From positions 806,001 to 870,000 of the forward strand of contig NZ_AP022599.1 in assembly GCF_010725725.1 (NCBI RefSeq): a stretch of DNA of 64,000 bases. The letters are read 5' to 3'. The DNA is from Mycolicibacterium pulveris. GTDB taxonomy: Bacteria; Actinomycetota; Actinomycetes; Mycobacteriales; Mycobacteriaceae. Numbering within the stretch: position 1 is the first letter of the stretch; every line of letters begins with the position of its first letter. A model generated the notes under the pieces. That model was not told where the DNA came from, ran no database searches, and worked only from the letters and a program-made list of their open reading frames with translations. Shown one piece after another: positions 2,836-26,380 of this stretch. The position numbers and the translations under genes are program-made.

Positions 2836-2850
2836 GACGAGAACCTTAAG

Positions 2851-2903
2851 GCGATTTGGGCGTGTTTTGTCCTGCTGAGCGTGACCAAACGCACCGAAAT
2901 CGC
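2851..2903 (-). terminator. Imperfect inverted repeat downstream of birA
   Basis: The left arm 2851-2869 (starting GCGATTTGGGCG) can pair with the right arm 2886-2903 (ending CACCGAAATCGC); seven outer bases are perfect, with mismatches inside and a loop of about 16 nt. It abuts the birA stop codon, so it is well placed to end transcription from birA. A closely similar arm sequence occurs in the hairpin after accA3 (32902-32950). Confidence 0.5.
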
Positions 2904-3709
2904 TATGAGGCCGGGCGCAGGTGCACGATGTCGCCCGCGGACACCCGCGTCGGGCTCCCGTCGGCGTCGATGACCAACCTGCCCTGCTCGTCGATGTCGG
3001 CGGCCAGCCCGACGATCTCGGCGCCGCCCGGCAGCATCGCGCGCACGGTCATCCCGAGGGTCAGGCTGCGGGCTCGGTAGTCGGCGATCAGGCCGGGGTC
3101 GACGCCGCCGGAACGCCGCCACGAGTCGATGCGACGGCCCAGTTCGTGCAGTACGCGCCGGGTCAACTCCTGGCGGTCCGGCGCGGGCACCCCGAGTTCG
3201 ACCAGCGAGGTGACGCCGGGCACCCCGATCTCGGCGCCGCGCAGCGAGACGTTGAGCCCGATGCCGACCACCACCGCATGGCGGGCCGGGGCGACCTCGG
3301 CGAGGATCCCCGCCAGCTTGCCGCCGTCGGCGAGCACGTCGTTGGGCCACTTCAGGCCCGCAGGCACACCGGTGTCGGCGACCGCGTCGACGATCGCCAC
3401 GCCGGTCGCCAGCGGCAACCATCCCCAGGCTTGGCTGGGCACCGAGGCGGCGTCGACGCCGACGGACATGGTGATCTGCGCGTACGGCACCGCCGACCAG
3501 CTTCGGCCCTGCCTGCCGCGTCCGGCGGTCTGGTGCTCGGCGATCAGCACGGCGCCGTCGATGGCCTCGCCGCCGTCCGCGCGGGCGATCAGGTCGGCGT
3601 TGGTGGAGCCGGTTTCGGCCACCACGTCGATGCGACGCCACAGCGGCGATACGCCGATGACGCTGTCGCGCAGCGTCGCCTCGTCGAGCGGAACCCGGTC
3701 AGCAGTCAT
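2903..3709 (-). CDS. birA: Biotin--[acetyl-CoA-carboxylase] ligase
   Basis: BirA activates biotin with ATP and attaches it to the biotin carboxyl carrier domain; the likely target here is AccA3 encoded at 31.1 kb. The 268-residue protein has the biotin/AMP loop GRGRQGRSW (about residues 59-67) and the KWPNDVLADGGKLAGIL segment with its conserved lysines. It has no N-terminal helix-turn-helix, so it is a monofunctional ligase, not a repressor. The ATG at 3709 (MTADRVPLDE) was chosen because it overlaps the upstream lipase stop by 11 bp and matches the family length; a longer reading frame upstream has no family resemblance. Confidence 0.93.
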   Translation of the reverse strand: MTADRVPLDEATLRDSVIGVSPLWRRIDVVAETGSTNADLIARADGGEAIDGAVLIAEHQTAGRGRQGRSWSAVPYAQITMSVGVDAASVPSQAWGWLPLATGVAIVDAVADTGVPAGLKWPNDVLADGGKLAGILAEVAPARHAVVVGIGLNVSLRGAEIGVPGVTSLVELGVPAPDRQELTRRVLHELGRRIDSWRRSGGVDPGLIADYRARSLTLGMTVRAMLPGGAEIVGLAADIDEQGRLVIDADGSPTRVSAGDIVHLRPAS

Positions 3710-4955
3710 CGGGCGCTTGTCTGCCTGCGAACCGGTCACCGATCCAGTCGAGCATCTCGATCGCGTCGGCGGGGTTGTGTCCCCCTTCGGGATCGAACTC
3801 GATCGACACCACCCCACCGAGCGCGCATGCTTCCTCGATCGCAGCCCTGGTCCACTCGGCGTCGATGAACGGGTCCTTCCCGCCGTAGAACACGTAAAGC
3901 GGTGCCGACAAAGGCTTTTGGGGCAGCGCCCAGTCTTCGAGCAACCCCCGCAGCCGGTCGGCCGCCTGCGCGGTCTTGGGAATGAACTCTCGCGGCCCGA
4001 TCCGTTGGATCGCCGCGGCGCGGCGGTAGGCGCCTTCTTCGGTGCAGTCCGACAGCGCGTCCCAGTGGCGCGCGGCCTCGAAGTGGCGGTAGTCGTCGCG
4101 GTTGAGATCGGGATGCAGCCGCGCCAGCGACTCGACCACCGCGTGCATGACGGGCCGCTGCTCGACGGTCAAAGTGCCCTCCTCGGCCTTCGCCACGATT
4201 CCGGAGATGTCGGCGGCCGGCGCCGACGCGACGGCCCCGACCAGGTTCAGTTCCGGCGCGTAACCCCGCGCCTGTTCGTCAGCGGCCCACGCTGCGGCGC
4301 CACCCTGGGAGTCGCCCAGCGCCGCCCATCGGTCGGACACGTCATCGAAGGTGTTGCGCAGGGCCCGCACCGCGTCGATCATGTTCAGCCCCGCCGTGCG
4401 GGCATCCGAATACGGGTGCACGCCCTTGACGCCGAGCCCTTGATAGTCGGGCAGCGCGACGGCGTAGCCCCGCTGGGTGAGCACCCGGACCACGTTGACG
4501 AGGTTCAGCAGGGACGGCGACAGCGACGGCCCGCATACCGGATCGATGCCCAGCGTGCCGTGCCCGAACGCCAGCACCGGCCACCCGCCCTCCGGCGCGT
4601 CGTCCAGCGGGGTGAAGACCGATCCCGACACCACGGTCGCCGCCCCGGTGTCCCCGGAGGTGGAGCGGTAGACCACCCGGGCCGCCCGCAGCCCTCGCCC
4701 CTCCACGGTGCGGGTGACGCCCGGCATCGTGGTCGCCGACACCAACGACCCCGCGCCGGTGGCTGAGGTGTCGGCAGAGTCGATCGGCACCGGAGGTCCG
4801 CCCGAGGACGGAAACTGGTTCAGCACGCGGATCGCGAGCATCGTGGCGATCGGCCGCAACGGCACGATGACCAGCGCACCCAGCACGACGGCCACCAGTG
4901 CGACGGCCACGACCAGCACCGCGGTGCGCGTCGGGCCGCTGCGTTGGCTCGGCAT
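3699..4955 (-). CDS. Secreted or membrane-anchored LIP-family lipase (paralogue 1 of 4)
   Basis: This is a 418-residue alpha/beta hydrolase of the secretory-lipase (LIP) family. One hydrophobic N-terminal helix at about residues 11-33 should anchor or export it. The expected catalytic triad is present: Ser216 in GDSQG, Asp361 in GGKDPF and His393 in GGHNPAD. The oxyanion region FGHGTLGID and the LPDYQGLG motif are shared with the other three paralogues in this window. The ATG at 4955 is preceded by AGGAG five bases away, which favours it over an in-frame GTG start 51 bp upstream. It overlaps birA by 11 bp. The natural ester substrate is unknown; its neighbours suggest acylated EPS or envelope glycolipid. 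Confidence 0.85.
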   Translation of the reverse strand: MPSQRSGPTRTAVLVVAVALVAVVLGALVIVPLRPIATMLAIRVLNQFPSSGGPPVPIDSADTSATGAGSLVSATTMPGVTRTVEGRGLRAARVVYRSTSGDTGAATVVSGSVFTPLDDAPEGGWPVLAFGHGTLGIDPVCGPSLSPSLLNLVNVVRVLTQRGYAVALPDYQGLGVKGVHPYSDARTAGLNMIDAVRALRNTFDDVSDRWAALGDSQGGAAAWAADEQARGYAPELNLVGAVASAPAADISGIVAKAEEGTLTVEQRPVMHAVVESLARLHPDLNRDDYRHFEAARHWDALSDCTEEGAYRRAAAIQRIGPREFIPKTAQAADRLRGLLEDWALPQKPLSAPLYVFYGGKDPFIDAEWTRAAIEEACALGGVVSIEFDPEGGHNPADAIEMLDWIGDRFAGRQAPDDC

Positions 4956-5089
4956 GGATCTCCTGCTCAGGTGGTCGTCGCGCGCCACGGATGGCGGCGG
5001 GACCATCCTATTCAGCGAACATCACCGCGACGGCTCCGGGCGACCCGGTGCGCGCGGGCCGCTTTTTGCAGCGACTCATTGCGTGCCGC

Positions 5090-5165
5090 GAATATTTTTG
5101 CGGTGAGGATCGCACCAATAATTATAAATGGGCGTCAATTATTTCTTTTGTGCGTTGCTGGATGC
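5090..5165. other. AT-rich intergenic patch upstream of lipase 1
   Basis: The 262-bp gap between lipase 1 and the priming transferase has no gene. It includes an AT-rich patch very unlike the flanking high-GC sequence. On the minus strand it contains a perfect TATAAT hexamer (5126-5121), in the right direction to serve as part of a promoter for lipase 1 and birA, although a TTGACG only 6 nt away is badly spaced. It could also be a binding site for the AT-preferring nucleoid protein Lsr2. Confidence 0.35.
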
Positions 5166-5217
5166 CGACAGCGCGGCGCGCGGATATTTCGGAATATGGA
5201 TAGCTGACGGGCGTTGA

Positions 5218-6720
5218 TCAGTACGCGCCGGAGCCGGCGGCGACCGTCCGGATGGTCTTGGCGGCGATCAGCAGGTCGTTGGTGATCGACCAGTTCTCCA
5301 CGTAGGACAGATCCAGCCGCACCGAGTCCTCCCAGGACAGATCGGAGCGGCCGCTCACCTGCCACAGCCCGGTGATTCCCGGCAGCACCAGCAGGCGGCG
5401 GCGAACCTGGTCGGTGTAGGTGTCGACCTCCCGGCGCAACGGCGGGCGCGGCCCCACCACGCTCATGTCGCGGCGCAGCACGTTGATGAACTGGGGTAGC
5501 TCGTCGATGCTGTATCGACGCAGGAACCTGCCCACCTTGGTGACGCGCGGGTCTTCGCGGATCTTGAACAGCACACCGCCGACGCTCTCGTTGATGTCCA
5601 GCAGCCGCTCGAGTTCCTTGTCGGCCCCCTCGACCATGGTGCGGAACTTGAGCATCTGGAACGGCCGGCCGTCCAGGCCGATGCGCTCGGACCGGTAGAT
5701 CACCGGACCCCTGCTGGTCAGTTTGATCGCCAGCGCGGCAAGCAGCATCACCGGCAGCGCGCAGGTCAGAACCGTGATCGACACGCAGACGTCGAAGGCC
5801 CGTTTCTGCAGTTTCTTGGTCCCGCTGTACTGGGGCTTCTCGACGTGGATCAACGGCAGCCCGGCCACCGGACGCATCGTCAGGCGAGGGCCTGCGACGT
5901 CGACAACGCCCGGCGAGACCACGAGGTCGACGCCGAGTTTGTCCATCTCCCAGGACAACTCGCGCACCCCTTCGGGGCCGAAGTGGTCGGTGGTGGTCAA
6001 CGCCACGGTGTCGGCGTCGGTTTTCAGGATCGCGTCGTGCACGTGGTGTTCGTCGCCGAATACCGGCAGCGCGCCGACACCGGGCACCTCCAGCGTGCCG
6101 CCGCCTGTCCGGCCGGTCAGGCATACCCCGACCACCGCGAATCCGTAGGACCAACCGCGCGTGAGCGACTGCACCAGGCTGCGTACCGCCCGCACGTCGC
6201 CGACCGCGATCACGTTCTGCACGCACTTGCCCTGGCGACGTTGTCCGGCCAGCACCCGCCGACACAGGCTGCGGCTGCCCAACAGCGCGAGCAGACCGAG
6301 GGGAAGGGCCACCGCGAGGTAGCCACGCGCGTATTCCGGGCGAAAGATCATCAGCCCGACGGCGATCACGCCGACGGTTGCCAGCGTCGCGGAGAACACG
6401 CGGCGGTACTCCTCCACACCGGCACCGACGATGCGGGGTGAGCGGGTGCGGTAGGCCGCCAGCAAGGCCAGCCACGTCCCCCCGACGATGAACGAAAGCA
6501 GCGAGTAGTAGGAGAAGACCCAGAAGTACGCCCCGTGGGGCATCGCCTCGGGTGCGCCGAGCCTGACGAACTGGGCTGCGACGAGGGAGAGCCCGACGAC
6601 GACGACGTCGCTGACGATCAGTGCGAGCCGGTAGGACTTCTGCCACGGCGCACGGGGCGCGGTACCGATCTTGGTCAAGCGAGGCTTAGCGGGGGTGTAA
6701 GCCTCTTCAGCCACGAACAC
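5218..6720 (-). CDS. Polyprenyl-phosphate sugar-1-phosphate transferase priming EPS synthesis
   Basis: This 500-residue protein belongs to the WbaP/CpsE-type exopolysaccharide polyprenyl glycosylphosphotransferases, which load the first sugar phosphate onto undecaprenyl or decaprenyl phosphate at the inner membrane. The N-terminal half has about four hydrophobic helices and a CoA-binding-like domain. The C-terminal bacterial sugar transferase domain starts at KRAFDVCVSI and carries the conserved MLKFRTM, RRYSIDELPQ, VGPRPP and PGITGLWQVSGR motifs. The GTG start at 6720 follows an AGGAGG about 11 nt upstream. This is the initiating enzyme of the EPS locus. A 262-bp gap separates it from the acetylesterase gene. 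Confidence 0.92.
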   Translation of the reverse strand: MFVAEEAYTPAKPRLTKIGTAPRAPWQKSYRLALIVSDVVVVGLSLVAAQFVRLGAPEAMPHGAYFWVFSYYSLLSFIVGGTWLALLAAYRTRSPRIVGAGVEEYRRVFSATLATVGVIAVGLMIFRPEYARGYLAVALPLGLLALLGSRSLCRRVLAGQRRQGKCVQNVIAVGDVRAVRSLVQSLTRGWSYGFAVVGVCLTGRTGGGTLEVPGVGALPVFGDEHHVHDAILKTDADTVALTTTDHFGPEGVRELSWEMDKLGVDLVVSPGVVDVAGPRLTMRPVAGLPLIHVEKPQYSGTKKLQKRAFDVCVSITVLTCALPVMLLAALAIKLTSRGPVIYRSERIGLDGRPFQMLKFRTMVEGADKELERLLDINESVGGVLFKIREDPRVTKVGRFLRRYSIDELPQFINVLRRDMSVVGPRPPLRREVDTYTDQVRRRLLVLPGITGLWQVSGRSDLSWEDSVRLDLSYVENWSITNDLLIAAKTIRTVAAGSGAY

Positions 6721-6982
6721 GGCTAGGCATTCCTCCTAAGCTTTGCTGATGGCTATCGGCCCCCCGACCAATCGCGAGCGCGTATTTACTATGTCAAAGT
6801 TTGCCCGAGTCCGCTACCCATATGAGGAATTAGCTGGTCAGCGGCGAGTGTCTCGCCGCGCCGTCTTCGCGAAGCCGGCAAATCCATATGTACCCAAAAC
6901 CGTGCCGCGCAAGCAGCGAAAACCGATGCGTCCCGGGCACCGGCGCGACACGTCCGCACCCCGGTGGGGCTCGCCGATGACG
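6721..6982. promoter_or_regulatory. Intergenic region upstream of the priming transferase
   Basis: No gene is visible. The minus strand carries the AGGAGG ribosome binding site of the transferase and, around 6788-6806, the sequence TTGACA followed by TAGTAAAT, giving promoter-like but not ideally spaced hexamers. The region is less GC-rich than its surroundings. The first bases also form the downstream end of the acetylesterase operon, but I see no strong terminator hairpin. Confidence 0.35.
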
Positions 6983-7876
6983 TCAGCCGGATGCGTACCG
7001 CGCCAGCTGGTCGGTTCGCATCCGGCGGTATTCGTGCCACATGTCGTGCCCCATCTGCCGCAACCCCGCGCCGTTGTAGTGCCGGTCGGTCTCGGAGTTG
7101 ACCGACTTGCGCGGTCCGGGAATGAACGCCGTGCCGGGCACCCGGTCGGGCGTGTCGACGTGCACGGCATGGATCTTCGAATAATCGCGGCCGCTGAGCT
7201 CCATCTCCTCTGGCGCCATCCCGCCCAACAACACCGGCAGGTCCGCTCCGTAGCGCGCGCGCAGGTCCTCGATCAGGGAGTCGAGCTTGGCCTGATACAC
7301 CGGGGCGGCGGTCAGCGGAACGTCGCTTTCGCCCTGATGCCACAGCACCGCGGCCACCTCGCTGCCCGGATGGGTCGTCAGCGCCTTGTCGATGGCGGCC
7401 ACCGCGCGCCGGTAGAGGTTGACCCGGGTGCGGGTGTCGGCGGGATCCCAGGTGTAGCCGTTCTTCGGGGTGAACGACGTGTCACCGCGCGCGCCCGGGA
7501 CGAGAAGCACCGTGCGTCCGGTCTCGTCGGCCAGATGCTTGGCGAACGTCAGCCCGAAACCCACACCCTTACCGGGGATCTCATGGATGAGCGGCTCAAC
7601 GGCCAACACGGCCTCACCCTTGGACGGCCCGCACATCGCCCACTGATGGACGCGGGGATGCGGTCGGTCCTGGCCGTTCAGATCGAGCCCACGGCCCATG
7701 CCGAACGCGTTCGACTGGCCCAGCACCGGCACGATCAGGTAACCGCGCTCGGGGGGCGTGACGTCGATTCCCTTCGGGGCGAGCATGCGCAGCACCACGC
7801 ATTTGGTCTCGGTCAGCGCCCGCCGCCACAGCGGCCAGTCGCCGTCAGGTCCCTGGTGCGGCAGAGGTGCACTCAT
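6983..7876 (-). CDS. SASA/CE6-like carbohydrate acetylesterase
   Basis: This 297-residue protein of the sialate O-acetylesterase-like SGNH group removes acetyl groups from sugars. The nucleophile block GQSNAFGMG is at residues 53-61 (Ser55), and the WHQGESD block around residues 179-185 supplies the oxyanion and histidine region. No signal peptide is evident, so it may act on cytosolic lipid-linked repeat units, or be exported in an unrecognised way. It is the last gene of a seven-gene minus-strand operon that includes an acyltransferase and three lipases. Its start overlaps lipase 2 by 32 bp, so it belongs to the acylation-editing functions of the EPS locus. Confidence 0.8.
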   Translation of the reverse strand: MSAPLPHQGPDGDWPLWRRALTETKCVVLRMLAPKGIDVTPPERGYLIVPVLGQSNAFGMGRGLDLNGQDRPHPRVHQWAMCGPSKGEAVLAVEPLIHEIPGKGVGFGLTFAKHLADETGRTVLLVPGARGDTSFTPKNGYTWDPADTRTRVNLYRRAVAAIDKALTTHPGSEVAAVLWHQGESDVPLTAAPVYQAKLDSLIEDLRARYGADLPVLLGGMAPEEMELSGRDYSKIHAVHVDTPDRVPGTAFIPGPRKSVNSETDRHYNGAGLRQMGHDMWHEYRRMRTDQLARYASG

Positions 7877-9083
7877 TTGCCACCGGCTTTCCTGCGAATC
7901 TGTCTGTCAGCCAGGCATATTGGGAGCTGATGTCCACGTTGCCGTGTCCCGCTTGCGGCTGTAGGTCCCACACGACCGGGCCCCCGAGCGCGCAGGCCCG
8001 TGCGATCGCGTCGGTGATCCACTGGGCGTCGATGTATTCGTCGCGGCCGCCGTAGGAGACCGACAGCGGCGCCGTGAGCGGCTGCTGCGGCAGTGCCCAC
8101 TGGCGCAGCAGCTCGCGCAACCGTTCGGCGGCCCGCGGTGTCTTCGGTGCCAAGTCGCCCGGCGCAAGCGCCTCCGCGGCCTCCTTGCGGTCCAGCCCCT
8201 TGGCGCCCGAACACGACGACAGCACGTCCCAGTATTCGGCGGCGGCGCCGCTGCGGAAGTCGTCCCGGTTGAGATCGGGGTGCAGCCGCGCCAGCGTCTC
8301 GACCACCGACTGAAACGCCGGACGTTGGTAGTACGTCAACGTGTGCTCCTGCGCCTTGTCGACGAGGCCGGTGACGTCGACGGCCGGAACCATCGCAACC
8401 ACGCCGACCAGGTCGAGTTCGGGTGCGTAGGCGCCCGACTGCTCCCCTGCGGCCCAGACCGCACCGCCGCCCTGTGACCCGCCAAGCGCGGCCCACTTGT
8501 GGGAGATGTCGTCGAAGGTGTGGCGCAGTGCGCGCACCGAGTCGATGATGTTGAGCCCCGCGGTCTTGGCGTCGAGGTAGGGATGGATGCCCGGCGCGCC
8601 GAGCCCCTGGTAGTCGGCGAAGGCGACGGCGTAACCCTTCCGCACCAGCCCGACCACCATGGAGGACATGCCCAGCAGTGAGTCGGACAGCGACGGCGCG
8701 CAGGGCTCGTCGATACCAGTCGTGCCGTGCCCGAACGCCACCACCGGCCAGCCCTCTTGTGGGGCAGCGCCTTTGGGGGTGTACACCGATCCGGAGACGA
8801 CGGTCGGCTCGCCGGTGTCGCCGTTGGTGGAGTGGTACACCACGCGGGCGGCGTTGAACTCGCTTCCCGCCTTGCTGCGGCTGAGACCCGGCATCGTCAT
8901 GGCGCTGATCAGGTCACCGGGTGCCGACCCGCCGAGGTGCGCGGTCGGGATCGGCTCGGCGTCCGAGCGGGCGGCCGACGCGGCGCCACGGTCGAAGACG
9001 TCGGTGCCGACCGCCCACGCCACCGCCCCTGCGACCAGAACCACCGCTGCCGCGACGGCGAGCCCGACCCGCAGTCGGCCCAT
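7845..9083 (-). CDS. Exported LIP-family lipase (paralogue 2 of 4)
   Basis: This is a 412-residue LIP-family hydrolase with an N-terminal signal anchor (about residues 5-25) followed by an Asp/Ala/Ser-rich linker. The triad is intact: Ser203 in GGSQG, Asp348 in GGRDEY and His380 in QAGHGNVD. It is the closest relative in the window of lipase 1, sharing long blocks such as FGHGTTGID, ADYQGLG and RLHPDLNRDDF. The ATG at 9083 shares a base with the acyltransferase stop (TGATG), so translation is coupled. Co-translation with an acyltransferase suggests the two act on the same acylated polymer or lipid; the substrate itself is not shown by the sequence. Confidence 0.85.
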   Translation of the reverse strand: MGRLRVGLAVAAAVVLVAGAVAWAVGTDVFDRGAASAARSDAEPIPTAHLGGSAPGDLISAMTMPGLSRSKAGSEFNAARVVYHSTNGDTGEPTVVSGSVYTPKGAAPQEGWPVVAFGHGTTGIDEPCAPSLSDSLLGMSSMVVGLVRKGYAVAFADYQGLGAPGIHPYLDAKTAGLNIIDSVRALRHTFDDISHKWAALGGSQGGGAVWAAGEQSGAYAPELDLVGVVAMVPAVDVTGLVDKAQEHTLTYYQRPAFQSVVETLARLHPDLNRDDFRSGAAAEYWDVLSSCSGAKGLDRKEAAEALAPGDLAPKTPRAAERLRELLRQWALPQQPLTAPLSVSYGGRDEYIDAQWITDAIARACALGGPVVWDLQPQAGHGNVDISSQYAWLTDRFAGKPVANECTSAAPGT

Positions 9084-10348
9084 CAGCGCCACCTGTACCG
9101 GTACCGTCGGGCGATGTTCATCGCGGGCTTCTCCACGCTGTAGTAGGTGACGGCGGATACGGCCAGCGTAACCGCAAGCACCACAACGATGTTCAGGCAC
9201 ATCGCGCCCAGTGAGTCGCCTGCCAGCAGGCCGAACCGGTGCAGCATCAACATCGTCGGGAAGTGCAGCAGATACAGCGACAACGACACCTTACCGACGA
9301 ACTGGAACGGAGCCAGTTCGAGGCCCTCGCCGATCCTCGAACGCTGGCCACACGACAGCGGTGCGACGATCACCAGAATCGCCAGCGCCGAGGCGATCGC
9401 TACTCCGCTGGTGCCGAACATGTTGCCGAGCGCGATCAGCGCGAACGACACACCCAGCACCACGGGCAGCGCCAGCGCCGACACCGGCCGGACCCGCCGC
9501 GCCGCCGCCTCCCGCACCGTGCCGTTTTCGATCGCCACGACGACGATCGCGGCCAGCATGCCGAACGCGAAGTTGTCGGCGTTGACCAGGAAACTCCTCA
9601 GATACACCGAAACCCAGTTCGGGCCCCACTGCATCATCTCCGGGTCGGCCACCCCGAAGTAGTTGCTCACCACGGGCAGCAACAGCTTTCCGACGAAACC
9701 GATGACGATAAAGAGCACCGGCAGGCTCGCGGCCAACAGCAAGGGACGCATGGCCGTTCGGCGGCGCATCGTGAACAACACCACGGCGGCCAGCGGCAGC
9801 GACGCATAGAAGGCGAACTCCAGGGTCAGCGACCACGACGGGTTCAGCCCGGTGAAGACATACTCGGGGATGTAGGTCTGCACCAGGGTCAGGTTGGCCA
9901 GCAGCTGCCAGGGATCGGTGATGGTGCCGGTGCCCGCGTCGGTGCCGAGAGCCTGCTCGGTCGGGTTCTCTACGTACACCACGCCGAAGACGTAGTTGCA
10001 CAGCAAGAAGATGACGAGGTAGCCGGGCACGATGCGGGCGAACCGGTGGATCGCGAAGTTGCGTGCGCTGGGAGCTGTTGCCACCGCGGCGTCTTCGGTC
10101 AATCGCCGCACGTAGGGCAGGAACAACAGAAAGCCGCTGAGCACGAAGAAGAAGATCAGGCTCATGCCGACGATCCCGATCTTCGTCTGCGCTGCGGTGT
10201 TCGGCGAGAAGTTGCCCGCCACGTGCATGACGGCGACCCCGACGGCCGACAGTCCGCGTGCGCCGTCCAGGCCGATGATGCGCCCGGTGGTGCGGGCCGC
10301 CGGCTTCGATGACAACCGGTCCGCGGTGTCCCGTGGCTTGATCGTCAT
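9083..10348 (-). CDS. Acyltransferase-3 family integral membrane O-acyltransferase
   Basis: This 421-residue polytopic membrane protein has about ten hydrophobic helices. Its first helix bears the family signature GLDGARGLSAVGVAVMHV, including the conserved Arg and His of acyltransferase-3 proteins. Members such as OafA and ExoZ transfer acetyl, succinyl or other short acyl groups onto exported polysaccharides. The ATG at 10348 overlaps the lipase 3 stop by the 4-bp ATGA arrangement, and its own stop overlaps lipase 2. It is probably the enzyme that decorates the EPS or its repeat unit with an ester group. Confidence 0.88.
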   Translation of the reverse strand: MTIKPRDTADRLSSKPAARTTGRIIGLDGARGLSAVGVAVMHVAGNFSPNTAAQTKIGIVGMSLIFFFVLSGFLLFLPYVRRLTEDAAVATAPSARNFAIHRFARIVPGYLVIFLLCNYVFGVVYVENPTEQALGTDAGTGTITDPWQLLANLTLVQTYIPEYVFTGLNPSWSLTLEFAFYASLPLAAVVLFTMRRRTAMRPLLLAASLPVLFIVIGFVGKLLLPVVSNYFGVADPEMMQWGPNWVSVYLRSFLVNADNFAFGMLAAIVVVAIENGTVREAAARRVRPVSALALPVVLGVSFALIALGNMFGTSGVAIASALAILVIVAPLSCGQRSRIGEGLELAPFQFVGKVSLSLYLLHFPTMLMLHRFGLLAGDSLGAMCLNIVVVLAVTLAVSAVTYYSVEKPAMNIARRYRYRWR

Positions 10349-11607
10349 TGCGGCGCCCCCATCGGGGCCAGGCCGAGACAGCTGTCGGGTGCCGGCTCCC
10401 CGCGGAACCGCGCGTTGACCCAGCCGAAGGCCGAGGAGACGTCGATGGCGGCGTGGCCCTTGTCCGGTTGCAGCTGGATGTCGATCACATCGCCCATCCC
10501 GCAGGCCGCCCGCAACGCGTGCTCGGTCCATGCCTGCGGCACCAATGCATCCTCACCGCCGAAGAGGACCAGCATCGGAGCGCTCGTCGGGTGCTGGGGC
10601 AGGCTCATGCGCTGCAGATGCGCGCGCAGCGTGTCGAGCGCCTGCGGTGTGCTCGGCACAAGATCGGCACCCGACAGCTGCAGTGTCAGCCCGGCGCGCT
10701 CGGCCGCCTCCGGCCCGTCGCACGCAATCAATGTGTCCCAGTTGTCTTTTACGAACCCCCGCCGGTAGTCGTCGAGTGGGAAATCCGGATACGCCCGGTG
10801 CAGCGTTTCGAGGAGCACCACCAGCGCGGGCATCTGTTCGGCGGTCAGCTGCCCACCGGCCGCCGCGTCGGCGAAACCGGTGATGTCGGCCGCGGGCGAC
10901 ACGCTCACCGTGCCCAGCAGCGCGAGGCCGGCGCCGTAGCTTGCCGCCAGCTCGTTGGCCGCCCAGGTAGCCTGCCCGCCTTGGGACACCCCGATCGCCA
11001 CCCAGCGTTCGGACGCCTCGGGAACCAGGTGGCGGGCGGCCTTCACCGAGTCGATCACGTTGTAGCCGGCCGTCGTCGAATCGAGGTAGGGGTGGTAGCC
11101 GCCGTCGTCACCGCTGTCGACGCCCAGACCCTGATAGTCCGGCACGGTGACGACGAACCCGGCGTTGACGAGCGCGGTCACCACGTTCGACGTGCCGAGC
11201 AGCGTCGGCGACAGCGACGGCGCACAGTCGGATTCGATGCCGGTGGTGGCGTGCGCGTACACGACGATCGGCCAACCACCTTCGGGCGGTTCGCCTTTCG
11301 GGACGAACACGCTGCCGCTGACCTGGGTGAGACCGCCGGTGATGCCCGAGGTCGACGTGTACTCGACGCGCGCGGCCAACGAGCTCAGAGCGCGCAGCCT
11401 GCGGTCGATGGTCGGGAAGGAGTGGGCCTCCGACAGCGCCCCCGGCGCTTCGCCTGCGGCGCTGTAGTCGGCGTCGAGGCGCATACCGGTCATCGCCGAG
11501 GGTGCCTGCGCGGAAGTGTGGTCGGCGCAACCCGATACGATGGCGCCCGCCGCGAAGACAAGGCCGGCCAGCGCGATGCCCGCAGTGTTGAGGTGCCCGC
11601 GGATCAT
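10345..11607 (-). CDS. LIP-family lipase lipoprotein (paralogue 3 of 4)
   Basis: This is a 420-residue LIP-family hydrolase made as a lipoprotein. The N-terminal signal ends with the lipobox VSGC, placing the acylated Cys at residue 27, so the enzyme should sit on the outer face of the plasma membrane. The catalytic residues are present: Ser208 in GVSQG, Asp353 in GGEDAL and His385 in DKGHAAID. Conserved blocks YAHATTGIE and PDYQGLG tie it to the other paralogues. The ATG at 11607 overlaps the Wzz-like gene stop (ATGA), so it is co-translated with polysaccharide chain-length machinery. Confidence 0.85.
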   Translation of the reverse strand: MIRGHLNTAGIALAGLVFAAGAIVSGCADHTSAQAPSAMTGMRLDADYSAAGEAPGALSEAHSFPTIDRRLRALSSLAARVEYTSTSGITGGLTQVSGSVFVPKGEPPEGGWPIVVYAHATTGIESDCAPSLSPTLLGTSNVVTALVNAGFVVTVPDYQGLGVDSGDDGGYHPYLDSTTAGYNVIDSVKAARHLVPEASERWVAIGVSQGGQATWAANELAASYGAGLALLGTVSVSPAADITGFADAAAGGQLTAEQMPALVVLLETLHRAYPDFPLDDYRRGFVKDNWDTLIACDGPEAAERAGLTLQLSGADLVPSTPQALDTLRAHLQRMSLPQHPTSAPMLVLFGGEDALVPQAWTEHALRAACGMGDVIDIQLQPDKGHAAIDVSSAFGWVNARFRGEPAPDSCLGLAPMGAPQ

Positions 11608-12272
11608 CGATCTCGTCCCGTGAGCACCTCGTCGACGACATGGTCGAGTTGCCGGGCGCCGTGCATGCGGTCCCTGAGCAGTCCGTACGCCAGCACCAAC
11701 AGGGCACTGAGCACGAACCCCAACGCGCCTGCGGCAATGACGAACTGCCACACCGAGCCCTGCCGGACCGCGGGTTCGGCCGCGTCGACGACGACCAGTT
11801 CGGCGCTCCCGGTGTCGACCGCGGCCATCTCCTTGGTCAGCGCGACGAGGTTGTGCGTGACGGTGTCGGCGGTCCGTTGGGTCAGGTCGGGGTCGCCGCC
11901 GGCCACCACCACCTCCAACAGCACGGAGTTCCTGCCCACCACGGTGATTCGAGACGCCAGCTCAGCCGGGCTGGTCTTCAGGTCCAACCGCTCGATGGTG
12001 CGCACCGTCACCTGCCGGCTGCGGGCCAGCTGCTGGGTGGTGACATTTCGGGAAAGCGAGTTCAGGTGACCGTAATAGGCATCCACCGGGGTGGCGCCGC
12101 CGGGCGTCACGGCGAAGACCCGTGCCGTCGAGGTGTACGCGGGCGGGGTGCTCTGCCAGGCGAGCCAACCGGCCCCCGCCGACAACGCGGTCGCGCACAG
12201 CAGCACGACCCAGCCGTTGGCGAGCAGTCTCAGATAGTCCCGTATCCGGGGCACGTTGGCGGGTGGCCTCAC
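11604..12272 (-). CDS. Wzz/YveK-like polysaccharide chain-length determinant
   Basis: This 222-residue membrane protein has two flanking transmembrane helices (about residues 18-38 and 176-198) around an extracytoplasmic domain, the topology of polysaccharide co-polymerases. Typical features include PPAYTSTARVFAVTPGG after helix 1 and the VVVDAAEPAVRQGS segment before helix 2. It has no kinase domain; that is carried by the separate Wzc-like gene upstream in the operon. It likely works with the Wzy polymerase to set chain length. The GTG start at 12272 overlaps the lipase 4 stop (GTGA). Confidence 0.82.
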   Translation of the reverse strand: MRPPANVPRIRDYLRLLANGWVVLLCATALSAGAGWLAWQSTPPAYTSTARVFAVTPGGATPVDAYYGHLNSLSRNVTTQQLARSRQVTVRTIERLDLKTSPAELASRITVVGRNSVLLEVVVAGGDPDLTQRTADTVTHNLVALTKEMAAVDTGSAELVVVDAAEPAVRQGSVWQFVIAAGALGFVLSALLVLAYGLLRDRMHGARQLDHVVDEVLTGRDR

Positions 12273-13513
12273 GTCGCACCCACGCAGATGTCGGCGGGCC
12301 GTTGTCCGTCGAATCGTGCTCTCAGCCAGTGCAGCGACGACTGAATGATCAGTTCGTTGGTGGTCGTCGTGTCCCCGATCCGGCGATTCACGACGATGGG
12401 ATCGCCTTTGGCGCAGGCGTCTTTCACCGCGAGCGCGACGCCCGCCTGCGGCACCAGCGGATCATGGGTGCCATAGACCACCAGCACGGGGGCGGGGGGC
12501 GCCGGGGACGGCCCCGGCAGGGCCAGCGCGCTGAGCGCGTCACGCAACGCCGAGGCGGCGGCGTCGTCGCGTGGACGCAGATCCTGCGGGCCCAGCTGCG
12601 ACGCGAGCCGCTGCGCCTCCGCGGGGTCCGCGGGCGCGCACGAGGTCAATTCATCCCAATGGTCGCTCGCCGGACCCGATCGGTAGGCGTCCAGGTCGAG
12701 GCTGGGCAGTTCCTGCGACAGGCCCTGCAGTATCACCATGAGCAGCCGGTACTGGTTCTGACTGAGGTTGCCGTTCATCGCGATGTCGACCAACGGCGAA
12801 AGGTCGGCGTACGGGGAGAGGGCCACGGCTCCGACAAGGTTGAGCCCCGCACCGTGGTCAACGGCTCGAATGGCCGAAGCCCAAGCCGCCAGTCCGCCTT
12901 GGCCACTGCCGTAGGCCGCCCAGTCGGTGCTGGCGTCGGGCAGCACCCGGCGCGCGGCTCGCACACCGTCGATCATGTTGTTGCCCAAGGCCACCCAGTC
13001 CAATGGGGCATGCTGGGGACCCGACACACCCAGCCCCTGAAAGTCGGGCATCATCACCATGTAGCCGCGGTTGAGCATCACCGTCATCGCGGACGCGTAG
13101 CCGCCGAGGCCCCTGGCCAGCGACGGCGCACAGTTCTGCGTCACGCCGGTCAGCGTGTGCCCGAACGCGATGATCGGCCATCCGCCCTTGGGGGCCTTGC
13201 CCGCCGGGACCGCGACCACACCGGAGACGTCGGCTGGTTGACCGGCGGTGGTGGTGGAGCGGTACACCACCCGGACGGCCGAAACTCCGGCGTCGGTGAA
13301 GTAGTCGTTGGCGGCCAGCGGTTTGACCTCCACGAGCGATCCGGGGCCGTCGTCGGTCATATCCGGCGGCGGCAACTCCGTCGCCCCGACGAACGGCGGT
13401 GTCAGCGTGCGCGGGGGCCGGTTGTAGTCGGCCGGCGGCTGCGGTGGGCTCGGCGCACAGCCGGCCAGGACCGACAGCACGCCGACGGCGGCCACCACAA
13501 GCCGCAAGCCCAC
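12269..13513 (-). CDS. Catalytically degenerate LIP-family lipoprotein (paralogue 4 of 4)
   Basis: This 414-residue lipoprotein has signal lipobox LAGC (Cys19). The fold motifs of the LIP family are kept (IIAFGHTLTGV, MPDFQGLGVSG, VVYGTHDPL with Asp351). The nucleophile elbow reads YGSGQGG, with Gly203 where the paralogues have the catalytic Ser. The terminal GGH/GH histidine is also gone: the segment reads RRIGDTTTTN, with Asp381 at that place. Loss of both Ser and His argues for a non-catalytic binding or chaperone role. Reading frame and length are intact, so this is not an obvious pseudogene. The GTG start shares a base with the kinase stop (TAGTG). Confidence 0.85.
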   Translation of the reverse strand: MGLRLVVAAVGVLSVLAGCAPSPPQPPADYNRPPRTLTPPFVGATELPPPDMTDDGPGSLVEVKPLAANDYFTDAGVSAVRVVYRSTTTAGQPADVSGVVAVPAGKAPKGGWPIIAFGHTLTGVTQNCAPSLARGLGGYASAMTVMLNRGYMVMMPDFQGLGVSGPQHAPLDWVALGNNMIDGVRAARRVLPDASTDWAAYGSGQGGLAAWASAIRAVDHGAGLNLVGAVALSPYADLSPLVDIAMNGNLSQNQYRLLMVILQGLSQELPSLDLDAYRSGPASDHWDELTSCAPADPAEAQRLASQLGPQDLRPRDDAAASALRDALSALALPGPSPAPPAPVLVVYGTHDPLVPQAGVALAVKDACAKGDPIVVNRRIGDTTTTNELIIQSSLHWLRARFDGQRPADICVGAT

Positions 13514-15060
13514 TAGCCGCTGCCTCCGTGCCGAGACCGGCTGCTTGCTCCCATCGCGGCGTCGCCGTTGGCGCGGCGGGAGTCACCGGATCCGACGAGC
13601 TGACCCTTCTGGGGCGCCACGGTGTCGGTGTCCACGGAGCGGGCACCGGCGGCGCGCTCACGCCCGGCGGAACGCTGCGCCGAATCGCGCTGCGCCTGCT
13701 TGTGGTGTCGGCGCCTGAGGCGCCCGCCGACACGCTCGAACGTCGCCACCGTGCCGATCAGGGCGACGTTGGCGGTCTCGAGCGCTTGGATCGCTCGGCG
13801 CAGCGCCGAGCTGGTGGTGGATCCGATGCGCGCCAACAGGATCGCGCCGTCACACAACGCGCCGACGTTGGCGCCGTCGGCGTAGTGCTCCAGCGGCGGG
13901 GTGTCGACGACGATGTAGTCGAAGTTGCGGGCGAGTTCGTCGAACATGGCGGCCGCGCGGTCGTTGGCCCACATCTCGCCGGGCCGCGTCGCCTTGGGAC
14001 CGGCGGGCAGCAGCGCGATGGCGTGCGCGCCGACCGGGATCTCGCCGATCACCGCTTCGGCCAGCGCGTGCTCCCCGGCGATCACCGTGCTCACTCCCCG
14101 GTTCATGGCGCGGGCGCGCCGCTGATCGTCGAGGCCCAACCGGTCGGCGAGGTCCCCGCCGCGCAGGTCACCGTCGACGACGACGACCGACCGCCCGGAC
14201 TCTGCGAGCGCGGCCGCCAGGTCGATGGCGACCGTGGTGCGCCCGTCGCCGGTGGATGGGCTCGTCACCGCGATGCGGCGCGGTGGGGCGCCGCTGCCTG
14301 GCGGGACGGCGAACCGCAGGTTGGTGCGCAGTTCGCGCACCCGCTCGGCGTAGAGCTCGTTGCCGTCGAGATCGACGACGGTGGTCGTGGGCCGGGCCGG
14401 TTCGGCGGGCAGTGCCCCGAGCAGGTGGGTACCGACGGCTCCCTCCACCGAGTCACGGCCGCGCAACCGTTTGTCGACGATGCCTGCCAGCACGGCGACG
14501 ACGATGCCGAGCACCAGACCGATGAGCGCGCCGAGCGCGATCATGGTGAGCAGCCCTAGGCCCGTCGGCGCCGTCGGGTAGGTGGCCTCGTCGACCACGA
14601 CAAGGCCGGCGGCGGGGCTGCCGCCCCGGCGCGAGGTCTCCAGCTCGCTGACCAGGCCGACCAGTTGGTCAGCAACCGCGTTGGTGTAGGTCTGCGCCTG
14701 CGCGGGGTCGGGGTCGGTGACGCTCACATCGAGCAGCACGGTCTTCTCACCGGGCATCGCGGTGACCTTCGAGCGCAACTCCCCGGGTGAGATCGGGGCC
14801 TTCAACTGGTCCACCGCCCGCGCCGCTACTTGTTCGCTGGACGCCAGGTCGGCGTACGAGTAGACACGTTCCTGGGAGAAGAGGTTGTTCTGGTACGCCT
14901 CGGTGACCGAAGTCCCGTTCTGCGTTGCTACGAACAGGCGCGCGGTCGACTGATATTCGGGTGTCAGTAAAAGTGTGGCCGCGTAGCCGCCGGCGCCACC
15001 CACGAGCGTCAGGGCCACGATTAGCCACCAGTACCTGCGGAAAATGCGCAGGTATTCCAT
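13513..15060 (-). CDS. Wzc/CpsD-like co-polymerase with BY-kinase domain, altered Walker A
   Basis: This 515-residue protein joins a Wzz domain (helices at about 11-33 and 170-193) to a cytosolic P-loop domain like bacterial tyrosine kinases that govern EPS export. Walker A' (VVVVDGDLR, 292-300) and Walker B (DYIVVDTPP) are clear. Walker A reads STGDGRTT, with Arg274 replacing the near-invariant Lys. No tyrosine cluster ends the chain; the tail is Arg/Ser/Gly-rich. It may therefore be a weak or non-phosphorylating regulator. I prefer the ATG at 15060 (MEYLRIFRRY); an in-frame TTG at 15084 is possible. It heads the seven-gene operon running to the acetylesterase. Confidence 0.85.
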   Translation of the reverse strand: MEYLRIFRRYWWLIVALTLVGGAGGYAATLLLTPEYQSTARLFVATQNGTSVTEAYQNNLFSQERVYSYADLASSEQVAARAVDQLKAPISPGELRSKVTAMPGEKTVLLDVSVTDPDPAQAQTYTNAVADQLVGLVSELETSRRGGSPAAGLVVVDEATYPTAPTGLGLLTMIALGALIGLVLGIVVAVLAGIVDKRLRGRDSVEGAVGTHLLGALPAEPARPTTTVVDLDGNELYAERVRELRTNLRFAVPPGSGAPPRRIAVTSPSTGDGRTTVAIDLAAALAESGRSVVVVDGDLRGGDLADRLGLDDQRRARAMNRGVSTVIAGEHALAEAVIGEIPVGAHAIALLPAGPKATRPGEMWANDRAAAMFDELARNFDYIVVDTPPLEHYADGANVGALCDGAILLARIGSTTSSALRRAIQALETANVALIGTVATFERVGGRLRRRHHKQAQRDSAQRSAGRERAAGARSVDTDTVAPQKGQLVGSGDSRRANGDAAMGASSRSRHGGSG

Positions 15061-15204
15061 GATCTCCAAGATCGGCCCTTTCAAAAGCGCGCCGCAAACA
15101 AACCTTCAAACAAGCACAGAGTAGCGGTTGCTCCCGCGGTTCGCGCTATTGCACCTGAGGGGGCTGGCTGGTATCCCGCCGGCGAAGCTGTCACCATTGT
15201 CTGC
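15061..15204. promoter_or_regulatory. Divergent intergenic region between kinase and polymerase genes
   Basis: This roughly 140-bp gap separates the divergently transcribed kinase operon and polymerase gene, so it should contain promoters in both directions. I cannot pick out convincing -35/-10 pairs by eye. No open reading frame of its own is credible. Confidence 0.4.
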
Positions 15205-16629
15205 GTGACGCCCCGTCAGAGTCTGATCGGCAAATCCATGTTAGCCCTTGCGGCGATCGCAATCTGTCCGCTCGTGGCGTGGGTCGCGTTCGGGCACGGC
15301 ACGCTTGTCACGTACGCCGTGATCGGCCTGCTTGGCCTGATCATCGGGGTGTACATCGGTTTGCGGCATCCGTTGTGGCTGTTTTGGGCGACGGCCGCGG
15401 TGATCGGCGGATTGCCGTTCGGATACTTCCCCGGCGTGCATATCCCGCTGTACCTGCTGTTCGCGGCCGGGGCGGTGCTGGCGGCGATAATTCATCCCAG
15501 CCAGCGAACTCGACTCAGCACCCTCGAAATAACCATTTTGGCGTTGCTGGTTGCGTCGGCAATTTCCGTCGTCGGCACCGGGGTCAGCGTTCCGGCGGTG
15601 TTGCTGTATGCGAAGTGGGGGATCGCCACAGCGGCTGCAATAGCGTTGCTGAGACTGTCCCGCGAGAACCTGGCCAGGTTCGGCAGGATCTTCGTCTACG
15701 CCGCGTCGGCCAACGCCTTCGTGGGGATCCTCATGGCGACGGTGGACCAGCAGCAGCGCCTGCTGAAACCGCTGCAGATCTTCGGCTACGGCGTGGGCGC
15801 GGGGCTGCGCGAGCAGACTGCGCTGTACGTCTACTCCAACGAGGGCGGCACGATCGGCAGGACGCTGCGGCTGGGCGGCACCTGGGTGCTGCCCAACAGC
15901 GCCGGGCTGGCGTTGGCGACCGCGTTGATCATCTGCCTCGTCCTGTTCGCCGGCTGGCGCAGGGCCGTGATGTCGACCGTAATCGTGGTGGCGCTGCTGC
16001 TCACACTGAGCCGCAGCATGATCTTCTCCGTCGCGGTCGGGTTGCTGCTGGTGCTGCTCTTCCACAGCATGCGCGCCCGCGACCGTCAGATCGCGCTCGG
16101 GTTGATCGGTGTCGGCGCCGCGGCCGCCCTGCTGACCCCGATGATCCGCGACCGCATCTTCTCCACGTTCGCCGACGAGGACACCGGCCGGGAGGCCCGT
16201 GCCGACTCGATCGCGGACTTCCCGCATCGCATGTCGGGTCACTGGCTGTTCGGCCTCGGGTGGGACCGACCCGAGTTCCGCAGCGGCCAGCTGGCCCAGT
16301 CGCTCAACTACGTCTCCAACGCCCCGCTGTTGACGGTCTACCGCGGCGGCATCATCACGGGGCTGGTGTTCGTCACCGTCCTCGTCGTCGGCTGCGTGAT
16401 GGCCTACCGGGCGCTGCGCTCGCCGTCGCTACCTCATGCCGTCTACGGCGGGGTGTTCATCGGCATCGCGGTGGTGTCGGCCAACCTGCAGCAGTCGGTC
16501 GTCGACATGCCGCAGATGACGCTGACCTTCTCGATCTTGCTGGCGTTCCTCGTCTACGTCGACCAGACCCGGCACGAGCCGCTCACCGACGCCCGCACAT
16601 CACCCGAATTGGCAAGGTCGTTCACCTGA
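15205..16629 (+). CDS. Wzy-like polysaccharide polymerase / O-antigen ligase family protein
   Basis: This 474-residue protein has around ten to twelve hydrophobic helices and the large extracytoplasmic loop typical of O-antigen ligase/Wzy polymerases, here between roughly residues 310 and 370. The conserved loop arginine context HWLFGLGWDRPEF matches the family. It would polymerise lipid-linked repeat units at the outer face of the plasma membrane. It starts at a GTG (MTPRQSLIGK). It is divergent from the kinase operon and convergent with a glycosyltransferase gene, whose stop lies only 7 bp after its own. Confidence 0.85.
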   Translation: MTPRQSLIGKSMLALAAIAICPLVAWVAFGHGTLVTYAVIGLLGLIIGVYIGLRHPLWLFWATAAVIGGLPFGYFPGVHIPLYLLFAAGAVLAAIIHPSQRTRLSTLEITILALLVASAISVVGTGVSVPAVLLYAKWGIATAAAIALLRLSRENLARFGRIFVYAASANAFVGILMATVDQQQRLLKPLQIFGYGVGAGLREQTALYVYSNEGGTIGRTLRLGGTWVLPNSAGLALATALIICLVLFAGWRRAVMSTVIVVALLLTLSRSMIFSVAVGLLLVLLFHSMRARDRQIALGLIGVGAAAALLTPMIRDRIFSTFADEDTGREARADSIADFPHRMSGHWLFGLGWDRPEFRSGQLAQSLNYVSNAPLLTVYRGGIITGLVFVTVLVVGCVMAYRALRSPSLPHAVYGGVFIGIAVVSANLQQSVVDMPQMTLTFSILLAFLVYVDQTRHEPLTDARTSPELARSFT

Positions 16630-16636: not shown

Positions 16637-17785
16637 TCACGCCGCGACGGTCTCGGCGCGCAGCAGAGCCGCAACCGCGCGGTGGGGCCGCCGCTGTTGC
16701 CAGCGTTGCCTGTTGACGTCGTAGAGCCGGTCGCCGTCGGCCACGGCAGCGGGCCGGTCGAGAAGATAGCGACGGCACTCGGCGACGAAACTGTCCTCAT
16801 CGTCGTGGGTTTGCAGTCCGTACATGGAGCCCAGGTCGCCGATCGCGGCGGTGGTGCCCACCACCGGCAGTCCCATCCGGATCGCGTCGAGGATCTTGAC
16901 CCGCACGCCCCCTCCCGTCTTGATGGGGGCCACCAGCGCCCGGCAGGTTCCGAGGAACGCGGAGAGGTCCTCGACGAAGCCGAGATCGCGCACGCCGGCG
17001 GGGTAGACCGGATCGGGCGCACCCGGTTTCTTCTTGCCGATGACGCACAGCTCGGCATCGGAGATGCCCGCGCAGATCCTCGGCCACAAGGCCAGCGTGT
17101 GCAGGAACGCCTCCTGGTTGGGCGGCCAGTCCCGCAGCCCCATGAACACGAGCCGGCGCGGGGTCCGTGCCACGTCGACCTGGCGCACCGGCGGCAGGGA
17201 CACGTCGAGCCATCGTGCCCCGAAAATCCCGTTGGCGCGGTAGAACTCGGCTTCCGGCGCGTCATAGGTGCCGACGGCATCGGCAGCCCTGGCGATCCGG
17301 ATCTCGTCGCGGCGCAGCCGGGGTGCCTCGATCCGGCCCAGCACGCCGCGGCTGGCCCGCCACACCAGCGCCTCGGAGATATTGGTGTTGACGACCAGGC
17401 GCGCGCGACCGAACTTGGCGCTGCGCAGGAAGGATTCGGCCATGTAGCTGTGCTCCGCGACGAAGACGTCGGCGTCACACGCCTCGATCGCGGCGACCAG
17501 GTCGTCGGTGTCGAACCGGACGTGAACCAGGCTGCGCCGCTTGCGAATCGAATCCACCAGCAGTCGGGCCGGTCGGATCTTGGGCTTCGGCAGCCGTTTC
17601 AGCGGAAGGTCGCCTGGCAGCGTGGTCGAGCCCGTCTGCGCGGACAGGCACAGCCCGGACACCTCGAATTCGTCGGCGGCCAGCCCCATGAGCAGCTGCC
17701 CGAGCTCGACGTCACCCGCCCGCTCCGTCACCGGGTCTTTCGACAGCAGAAACGTCACCTTGGTCGTTGGCCGGCCGTCTGCCAT
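16637..17785 (-). CDS. Glycosyltransferase (GT4-like, GT-B fold)
   Basis: This 382-residue cytosolic protein has GT-B features in its C-terminal half: RRLVFMGLRDWPPNQEAF at the start of the nucleotide-sugar domain and the late acidic stretch TGGGVRVKILDAIRMGLPVVGT, which corresponds to the family 4 donor-binding region. It would add one sugar to the EPS repeat unit; donor and linkage cannot be deduced. The ATG at 17785 (MADGRPTTKV) has AAAGGGA six bases upstream, better than the ATG 15 bp earlier. The upstream flippase gene extends about 70 bp into it. Confidence 0.82.
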   Translation of the reverse strand: MADGRPTTKVTFLLSKDPVTERAGDVELGQLLMGLAADEFEVSGLCLSAQTGSTTLPGDLPLKRLPKPKIRPARLLVDSIRKRRSLVHVRFDTDDLVAAIEACDADVFVAEHSYMAESFLRSAKFGRARLVVNTNISEALVWRASRGVLGRIEAPRLRRDEIRIARAADAVGTYDAPEAEFYRANGIFGARWLDVSLPPVRQVDVARTPRRLVFMGLRDWPPNQEAFLHTLALWPRICAGISDAELCVIGKKKPGAPDPVYPAGVRDLGFVEDLSAFLGTCRALVAPIKTGGGVRVKILDAIRMGLPVVGTTAAIGDLGSMYGLQTHDDEDSFVAECRRYLLDRPAAVADGDRLYDVNRQRWQQRRPHRAVAALLRAETVAA

Positions 17786-20255: not shown

Positions 20256-20939
20256 GTGGGTATAGCTGGGACCGTCAGATTCCTTGCAACACAACGCCTT
20301 ATCGGCTTCGACGTACCCGATACGCCGGTCTTCTACGGGGCGGACGGCAGCTTCGACAAAGGGACCGATTGGTTCATTGACACGCTGCGCAGATCGAAGC
20401 GTTATCTGGAATTCGGAACCGGCGGGTCCACGTACCTGGCAGCAAAGTTCGGCATCGAGTTCGTCGCGGTCGATTCCGACCCGTTTTTCCTCAAGAGCGT
20501 GCAGAAGAAGATCCGCGACGACGGGCTGGCCCGACCGGTCGGGCAGAGCTTTCACTACGCCGACATCGGCCTGACCGCGCACTGGGGCCGCCCGATCGGG
20601 CCGGGGCTGAACTCGCCGAGACGGCTGGCGAAGTTCCGCCGCTATTCGGACCCGCCGCCGCAAAGTTTCGAGGGCGGGCGCGCGCCGGACCTCGTTCTGG
20701 TCGACGGCCGGTTCCGGGTCGCCTGCGTGCTCAAAACCCTTCGCGCGCTGCGCAATGAGCGCGGCTGGACGATCGCGATGGACGACTACGGGGACCGTCC
20801 ACACTTCCATGTGGTGTCCGAGTTCGCCGAGATCGATCAATTGGTCAACGACCGGATGGCGGTCATCACGGCGGCCAAGCCGGTCAGTTCCGAACTGCTC
20901 GACAGCGCGATCCGCAAGTACGAAACCGAACTCGACTAA
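20256..20939 (+). CDS. Class I methyltransferase-like protein
   Basis: This 227-residue protein has a Rossmann-like glycine motif LEFGTGGSTYLAAKF and the acidic strand end FVAVDSDPFF, as in SAM-dependent methyltransferases, followed later by DLVLVDGRFRVACVLKTL. I chose the GTG at 20256 (MGIAGTVRFL) because AGGAG lies six to seven bases upstream; a longer frame exists without a ribosome site. It ends in a shared CTAA with the convergent acetyltransferase gene. It could methylate a sugar of the EPS or a lipid carrier; no substrate is visible. Confidence 0.7.
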   Translation: MGIAGTVRFLATQRLIGFDVPDTPVFYGADGSFDKGTDWFIDTLRRSKRYLEFGTGGSTYLAAKFGIEFVAVDSDPFFLKSVQKKIRDDGLARPVGQSFHYADIGLTAHWGRPIGPGLNSPRRLAKFRRYSDPPPQSFEGGRAPDLVLVDGRFRVACVLKTLRALRNERGWTIAMDDYGDRPHFHVVSEFAEIDQLVNDRMAVITAAKPVSSELLDSAIRKYETELD

Positions 20940-21619: not shown

Positions 21620-21632
21620 CAAATCGCTCCTG

Positions 21633-23660: not shown

Positions 23661-26380
<2,720 letters not shown>

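Follow-up and report, generated by a model that had tools for sequence, protein, structure and literature searches.

Why should genes of a lipase family lie interleaved with those of a polysaccharide assembly pathway? The question arises from a 64,000-nucleotide stretch of the Mycolicibacterium pulveris genome (NZ_AP022599.1, positions 806,001 to 870,000; hereafter the window), in which a putative exopolysaccharide (EPS) locus harbors four LIP-family genes, here termed LIP1 to LIP4. A first-pass annotation had described four such paralogues within 10 kb, and this description holds: all four products match PF03583 above the gathering score (51.6–80.7 bits versus 23), with LIP2, LIP3 and LIP4 being, respectively, 52, 40 and 37% identical to LIP1, and these 10 kb contain four of the six PF03583 matches in the genome (5.48 Mb, a single contig). 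On the evidence presented below, the LIP proteins are very probably part of the EPS machinery, and we incline somewhat to the view that the whole is a Wzx/Wzy-dependent EPS locus with a built-in set of proteins sharing the fold of Candida antarctica lipase A (CAL-A).

Organization of the LIP genes

The minus-strand array runs in the order Wzz-kinase (WzzBYK), LIP4, Wzz, LIP3, acyltransferase-3 (AT3), LIP2, SASA esterase, sugar-phosphate transferase and LIP1 (Table 1), with a Wzy-type gene oriented toward it and three glycosyltransferases, two hexapeptide transferases and a probable Wzx beyond. The 1–4 bp overlaps previously noted between three LIP genes and the kinase, Wzz and acyltransferase genes are borne out by the sequence and form part of a stop/start chain that is uninterrupted from the Wzz-kinase through the SASA gene (Wzz-kinase/LIP4, 1 bp; LIP4/Wzz, 4 bp; Wzz/LIP3, 4 bp, ATGA; LIP3/AT3, 4 bp; AT3/LIP2, 1 bp; LIP2/SASA, 32 bp). 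Most of the LIP genes are in this way translationally coupled to those of the co-polymerases. LIP1 lies outside this chain, 211 bp downstream of the sugar-phosphate transferase gene. Markers of the Wzx/Wzy pathway are found in the initiating sugar transferase (PF02397), the Wzy-type protein (PF04932) and the Wzz-kinase, a Wzz-type polysaccharide co-polymerase (PF02706).

Conservation of the LIP set across genomes

Relatives of the locus were sought with LIP queries in 80 genomes, in the contigs of named genomes (13 loci) and in two sampled sets, one from the genus (297 genomes) and one from the order (397 genomes). This yielded 56 loci, the window included, of which 49 were annotated after removal of seven duplicates (L054, L055, L056, L062, L067, L073 and L088); related loci are not independent, L064 and L065 being nearly identical. 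Single LIPs without an EPS core (L034–L040 and L053) were kept apart from the 49; the only genes of this kind near L039 encode a sugar transferase and an epimerase. Contiguity here means adjacency in the order of the markers sought, a search that may miss diverged or short genes. In these terms, WzzBYK-LIP-Wzz-LIP is contiguous in 45 of the 49 loci, and a LIP follows WzzBYK in all 48 loci in which WzzBYK was found. Sugar-phosphate transferase (45), Wzy (43), AT3 (37) and SASA (31) were also detected among the 49 loci, 48 of which encode three to six LIP paralogues. The marker search did not detect the second Wzz of L045, and the 13.3 kb stretch of L051 contains one LIP but no Wzz. Among the named carriers are M. 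elephantis, M. arenosum, M. bacteremicum, M. neoaurum and Gordonia sputi, and the nearest named relative of LIP4 is that of Mycolicibacterium elephantis (91–92% identity). The interpretation of the genes as an ordinary lipase cluster was rejected on the basis of this conserved synteny.

LIP (E ≤ 1e-45) and Wzz-kinase profiles were then compared on the same 297 genus genomes, scoring per genome the best six LIP and best five Wzz-kinase candidates (best four and best three, respectively, in the order sample). The best Wzz-kinase scores split into two groups, the first comprising 39 genus genomes with E ≤ 1.4e-178 and the second beginning at 5.2e-115. At least three LIPs are present in 39/39 genomes of the first group and in two of the remaining 258 (G236, in 130 contigs, and G286, in 590 contigs), and none of eight second-group Wzz-kinase loci, taken from the upper end of their group, has a LIP ORF within 15–18 kb. 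In the order sample, a first-group Wzz-kinase (E ≤ 4.1e-163) occurs in 8 of 397 genomes, all with at least four LIPs. Together with the conserved gene order, these results sustain the earlier proposal that the LIPs form part of the polymer machinery. A comparison of LIP2 with plasmids returned 37 records (8 from Rhodococcus), all below 60% identity and none spanning 80% of the query; they give no sign of a plasmid-borne spread of the locus.

A retained pseudo-lipase next to a degenerate kinase domain

Structure models predict the CAL-A fold for both LIP-family proteins modelled, and the Ser-Asp-His triad, with its GxSxG motif, is present in LIP1, LIP2 and LIP3. Across loci, the LIPs fall into slots A to D, occupied in the window by LIP4, LIP3, LIP2 and LIP1, respectively. 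The triad is complete in 122/122 ORFs of slots B, C and D; of 30 ORFs that match no slot, 27 are intact and three are not (a second copy in L046, a reverse-frame ORF in L075 and one in L090). The L046 copy (L046:13171-14577), of LIP3 type, carries Gly for Ser and Gln for His and lies next to an intact copy. When ORF starts were placed close to the preceding stop codon and the pattern was relaxed, lipoboxes were identified in 47/48 (A), 36/45 (B), 1/48 (C) and 0/28 (D) proteins, figures that supersede those of a stricter pattern on overlong ORFs (8/48, 15/45, 0/49 and 0/28), and hydrophobic N-termini are present in 48/48 slot C and 26/28 slot D proteins. Judging from these signal features, the LIPs are expected on the exterior side of the plasma membrane.

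The claim that all four proteins are lipases fails for LIP4, which has Gly at the position of the nucleophile Ser (GSGQG) and Thr at that of the His; on these residues it is a PF03583 homologue and not a lipase, and the idea of four LIP enzymes was therefore dropped. The Gly replacement defines a clade of 20 loci, in all of which the slot A frame is open and full-length in an ORF search that is blind to broken copies. On the tree, slot A groups by itself, and its dN/dS ranges from 0.06 to 0.28 (10 pairs); slot B values for the window (WIN), L041 and L061 are inflated, since their ORFs were untrimmed and overlap Wzz. In a quick tree, L090 and L093 joined each other through long branches, on which the loss of catalysis required two changes; both rows were excluded from the careful tree. 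Given the full-length frames and the low dN/dS, LIP4 was rejected as a decaying pseudogene, and these comparisons show slot A of this clade to be, judged by its residues, a retained pseudo-lipase. Retention of the gene despite lost catalysis, in one slot and one lineage, would be expected if the main task of the slot were binding there.

Two further observations concern this slot and its residues. SASA is present in 20/20 loci of the Gly clade and absent from 16 of the 26 loci with an intact slot A. In other mycobacteria, the single-copy, LIP3-like proteins of L034–L038 and L040, which lie off EPS markers, have also lost the nucleophile Ser (Gly in L034, L035 and L036, Arg in L037, Ala in L038 and Phe in L040) and possibly constitute a second family of dead LIPs; two of them (L034:9753-11009 and L036:9058-10281) adjoin a PF00756 esterase.

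The kinase domain of the Wzz-kinase is degenerate. In the window its Walker A motif reads GDGRTT, with Arg for Lys, and there is no Tyr tail. The Lys is replaced by Arg or Ala in 47/48 loci (the L093 alignment is too poor to be read), and the last 60 residues hold zero or one Tyr in 48/48 loci, as against four to six in eight chosen control paralogues, all of which retain the Walker A Lys. Judged on the Walker A Lys and Tyr tail alone, the protein is a pseudokinase, so that the label of kinase given to it initially has to be withdrawn, and an active bacterial tyrosine (BY) kinase at the locus was rejected because both features are missing. The same genome encodes a second Wzz-kinase, which has a tyrosine tail and whose Walker A motif is intact (L094, G000:C1:1218114-1219487), and by these motifs the species apparently has an active BY-kinase elsewhere.

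Possible roles of the LIP proteins

We favor LIP1, LIP2 and LIP3 as transacylases or esterases for acyl groups of the polymer, and LIP4 as a binding subunit beside the Wzz pair. That the LIPs act on acyl esters of the polymer seems to us somewhat probable; that they do so by transfer rather than hydrolysis is a more tentative proposal, plausible by analogy given the CAL-A fold models and the CAL-A-related lipases that transfer in water. Under this scheme, LIP1, LIP2 and LIP3 would form acyl-enzymes at the outer face of the plasma membrane and would add acyl groups, most likely long-chain fatty esters, to nascent polymer or lipid-linked repeats, or trim them from these, working alongside AT3, the two hexapeptide acetyltransferases and the SASA esterase. 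LIP4 would be a non-catalytic lipoprotein that binds acylated glycan, seated with the two Wzz proteins, and contacts between proteins, rather than tyrosine phosphorylation, would control chain growth. A bolder version, which we deem improbable as a whole, is a phosphorylation-free co-polymerase in which outer-face, lipase-fold lipoproteins replace the tyrosine-kinase cycle: LIP4, clamped between the Wzz proteins, would sense chain acylation and set length, and LIP1, LIP2 and LIP3 would transfer fatty acyls to yield a lipid-decorated, envelope-bound polymer.

Other roles can be envisaged. LIP1, LIP2 and LIP3 may be plain esterases, restricted to hydrolysis, that strip the acyl or acetyl groups added by AT3 and the hexapeptide transferases and thus edit, release or remodel the polymer. 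Their intact triads and the presence of a SASA-type carbohydrate esterase and three acyltransferase genes in the same locus agree with this, as does the same-fold Xanthomonas LipA, a cell-wall-degrading esterase according to its PDB entries. Nonetheless, LIPs persist where AT3 was not detected, several paralogues in lipoprotein and anchored forms exceed the needs of a simple editor, and some CAL-A relatives favor transfer in water; we hold this alternative to be possible but rather unlikely. It is less likely still that the LIP fold mainly provides the co-polymerase complex with a structural subunit for binding glycan or lipid, catalysis being secondary and the dead LIP4 revealing the essential function. 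The invariable position of a LIP after WzzBYK, non-catalytic under purifying selection in 20 of those loci, speaks for it, and LipA binds octyl glucoside (PMC4329599), but the complete triads of slots B, C and D point to selected catalysis there.

Nutrient lipases for external triacylglycerol or host lipids, merely co-expressed with the EPS genes, would fit the family name and the general lipase fold, yet their interleaving with Wzz genes, the overlaps, the co-occurrence and the retention of slot A despite its lost catalysis make this very unlikely. As for tandem duplicates carried along in the locus with no role of their own, the closeness and variable number of the paralogues would be as expected, but fixed slot positions, the separate grouping of slot A on the tree and low dN/dS bring this reading close to refutation.

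Several points weigh against the roles that we favor. We know of no chemistry for this polymer, and the LIP activities are predicted ones. LIP queries led to all 49 loci; only the 297-genome comparison is free of this selection, and the Wzz query used in it derives from LIP loci in turn. Slot A is intact in 26 of 48 proteins, so that a non-catalytic role cannot be its whole role across the family, and AT3 went undetected in 12 of the 49 loci though the LIPs stay, which implies that they need not serve its product. Outside the genus the link is looser: 14 other order genomes have at least three LIP matches (E ≤ 1e-45) and no first-group WzzBYK (G359, G373, G486, G518, G560, G575, G583, G587, G599, G611, G615, G627, G633 and G660), and in the two whose neighborhood was read, G587 and G660 (L090 and L093), a divergent array combines a Wzz-kinase with three LIPs. 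The first-pass annotation had also raised the matter of homologues scattered without EPS genes, which does not apply to the set as a whole but does to single copies, since those of L034–L038, L040 and L053 (G. jinhuaensis) lack nearby EPS markers. Finally, the likeness to Rhodococcus EPS discussed below would be one of chemistry only, and the 13 loci from the LIP4 scan of named genomes include none from Rhodococcus.

Gene content of the locus and its surroundings

The locus is bounded by birA and accD5, which we take to be neighbors in M. tuberculosis. The presence of purK within the retrieved stretch in 27 of the 49 loci indicates a site common to these. Window ORFs 1604-2686 and 2760-3641 were rejected as wrong frames over GtrA/bPH/birA and enter no count.

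Table 1. Predicted features of the EPS locus and its boundaries (window coordinates).
Feature	Position	Strand	Evidence
birA (boundary)	2903..3817	-	
LIP1 (slot D), predicted exported/membrane-anchored LIP-family hydrolase	3699..5006	-	PF03583 80.7 bits; triad S233-D378-H410
PST, polyprenyl-phosphate sugar-phosphate transferase, repeat-unit initiation	5218..6720	-	PF02397 4.1e-67
SASA-family carbohydrate O-acetylesterase-like protein	6983..7876	-	PF03629 3e-26; PDB matches NanS, acetylxylan esterase-like
LIP2 (slot C), hydrophobic N-terminal anchor	7845..9083	-	PF03583 67.1 bits; D, H and nucleophile motif (GGSQG) present; start codon ATG at 9083
AT3, membrane acyltransferase-3	9083..10348	-	PF01757 1.2e-23
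LIP3 (slot B), lipoprotein, triad present	10345..11607	-	PF03583 62.4 bits
Wzz, second polysaccharide co-polymerase, no kinase domain	11604..12272	-	PF02706 9.4e-4 and TIGR01006 3.5e-6, both below cut-off
LIP4 (slot A), lipoprotein pseudo-lipase	12269..13513	-	PF03583 51.6 bits; GSGQG (Gly for nucleophile Ser), His lost
Wzz fused to degenerate BY-kinase domain	13513..15084	-	PF02706 2.2e-10 (41.1 bits vs 25.5 cut-off); AAA_31 9.7e-10; TIGR01007 90 bits, below cut-off
Wzy-type polymerase / O-antigen ligase family	15205..16629	+	PF04932 2.8e-9, 37.4 bits vs 31.7 cut-off
Glycosyltransferase	16637..17800	-	PF13692 4.1e-13
Probable Wzx flippase	17712..18947	-	No match for window protein alone; PF01943 weak in 5/7 orthologues, best E 0.011
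Glycosyltransferase	18967..20103	-	PF13692 3.7e-7
Hexapeptide acetyltransferase, WcaF-like	20936..21685	-	PF00132; PRK10502 4.9e-22, below cut-off
Second hexapeptide-repeat transferase	21633..22313	-	PF00132 3.8e-10
Glycosyltransferase	22318..23454	-	PF00534 9.4e-20
accD5 (boundary)	24478..26115	+	

Just past accD5/maf, an NAD-dependent epimerase and a UDP-glucose/GDP-mannose dehydrogenase (27099-29589) might supply sugar nucleotides for the EPS. Elsewhere in the window lie a sigma-70-family factor with regions 2, 3 and 4 (34452-35492), which from gene order we take to be SigF, near a biotin carboxylase gene at 31086; a probable carotenoid cluster (41100-48616) with a Rieske/DUF5914 protein, HpnE-like and CrtI-family desaturases and a prenyl diphosphate synthase; and at least four consecutive Mce-family proteins (57565-62843).

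Relation to known systems

The locus resembles Wzx/Wzy EPS and capsule pathways of the Wzz/Wzc type in its sugar-phosphate transferase, Wzy-type protein, Wzz with kinase-like domain, glycosyltransferases, acetyltransferases and probable Wzx, and departs from them in its second Wzz gene, the LIP genes between the Wzz genes and the loss of kinase motifs. With respect to the CAL-A superfamily (PF03583; Candida antarctica lipase A, CpLIP2), the LIPs differ in being bacterial, encoded in an EPS locus and present as several lipoprotein or anchored paralogues, LIP4 further lacking Ser and His. LipA of Xanthomonas oryzae is not known to be encoded in an EPS locus. Unlike the LIP set, it is a single secreted esterase that acts on the plant cell wall (3h2g–3h2k). 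Some CAL-A-related lipases transfer long acyl chains in water (PMC7383625).

A BY pseudokinase that works with a co-polymerase and has neither Walker A motif nor Tyr tail is described for Myxococcus xanthus (EcpK/EpsV; PMC12004946); hence, the pseudokinase element alone is not new. EcpK is, however, a separate protein that has lost its Walker motifs, whereas the domain studied here, judged on Walker A and tail, is fused to Wzz and accompanied by LIP lipoproteins. In Rhodococcus, an actinobacterium related to the host, EPS of the FACEPS type (FR2, S-2) carries stearic and palmitic acid ester-bound to sugars, the type of product predicted here, and the portion available of that report names no LIP gene (PMC12786566); the word lipase does not occur in the main text, as far as available, of a survey of Rhodococcus EPS genes (PMC12298843). 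In the open-access literature, subscription papers being mostly outside the search, we found no report of an EPS locus that contains LIP genes, no Wzy-dependent locus in mycobacteria, where such polymers seem little described, and no enzyme set for the fatty-acid-containing EPS of related actinobacteria, the chemistry of which is known. What is new is thus the combination, the kind of pathway and the folds being known already.

The locus provides named candidate genes for the fatty acylation of an exported glycan in water and, if the proposed transfer holds true, the LIP set would represent the missing enzymes for fatty-acid-containing EPS. Likewise, a phosphorylation-free LIP/Wzz co-polymerase, if real, would constitute a new control principle for Wzy-dependent polymers. 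The occurrence of a pseudo-lipase beside a pseudokinase makes testable how chain length is determined by co-polymerases that dispense with tyrosine phosphorylation, a question raised for EcpK in 2025.

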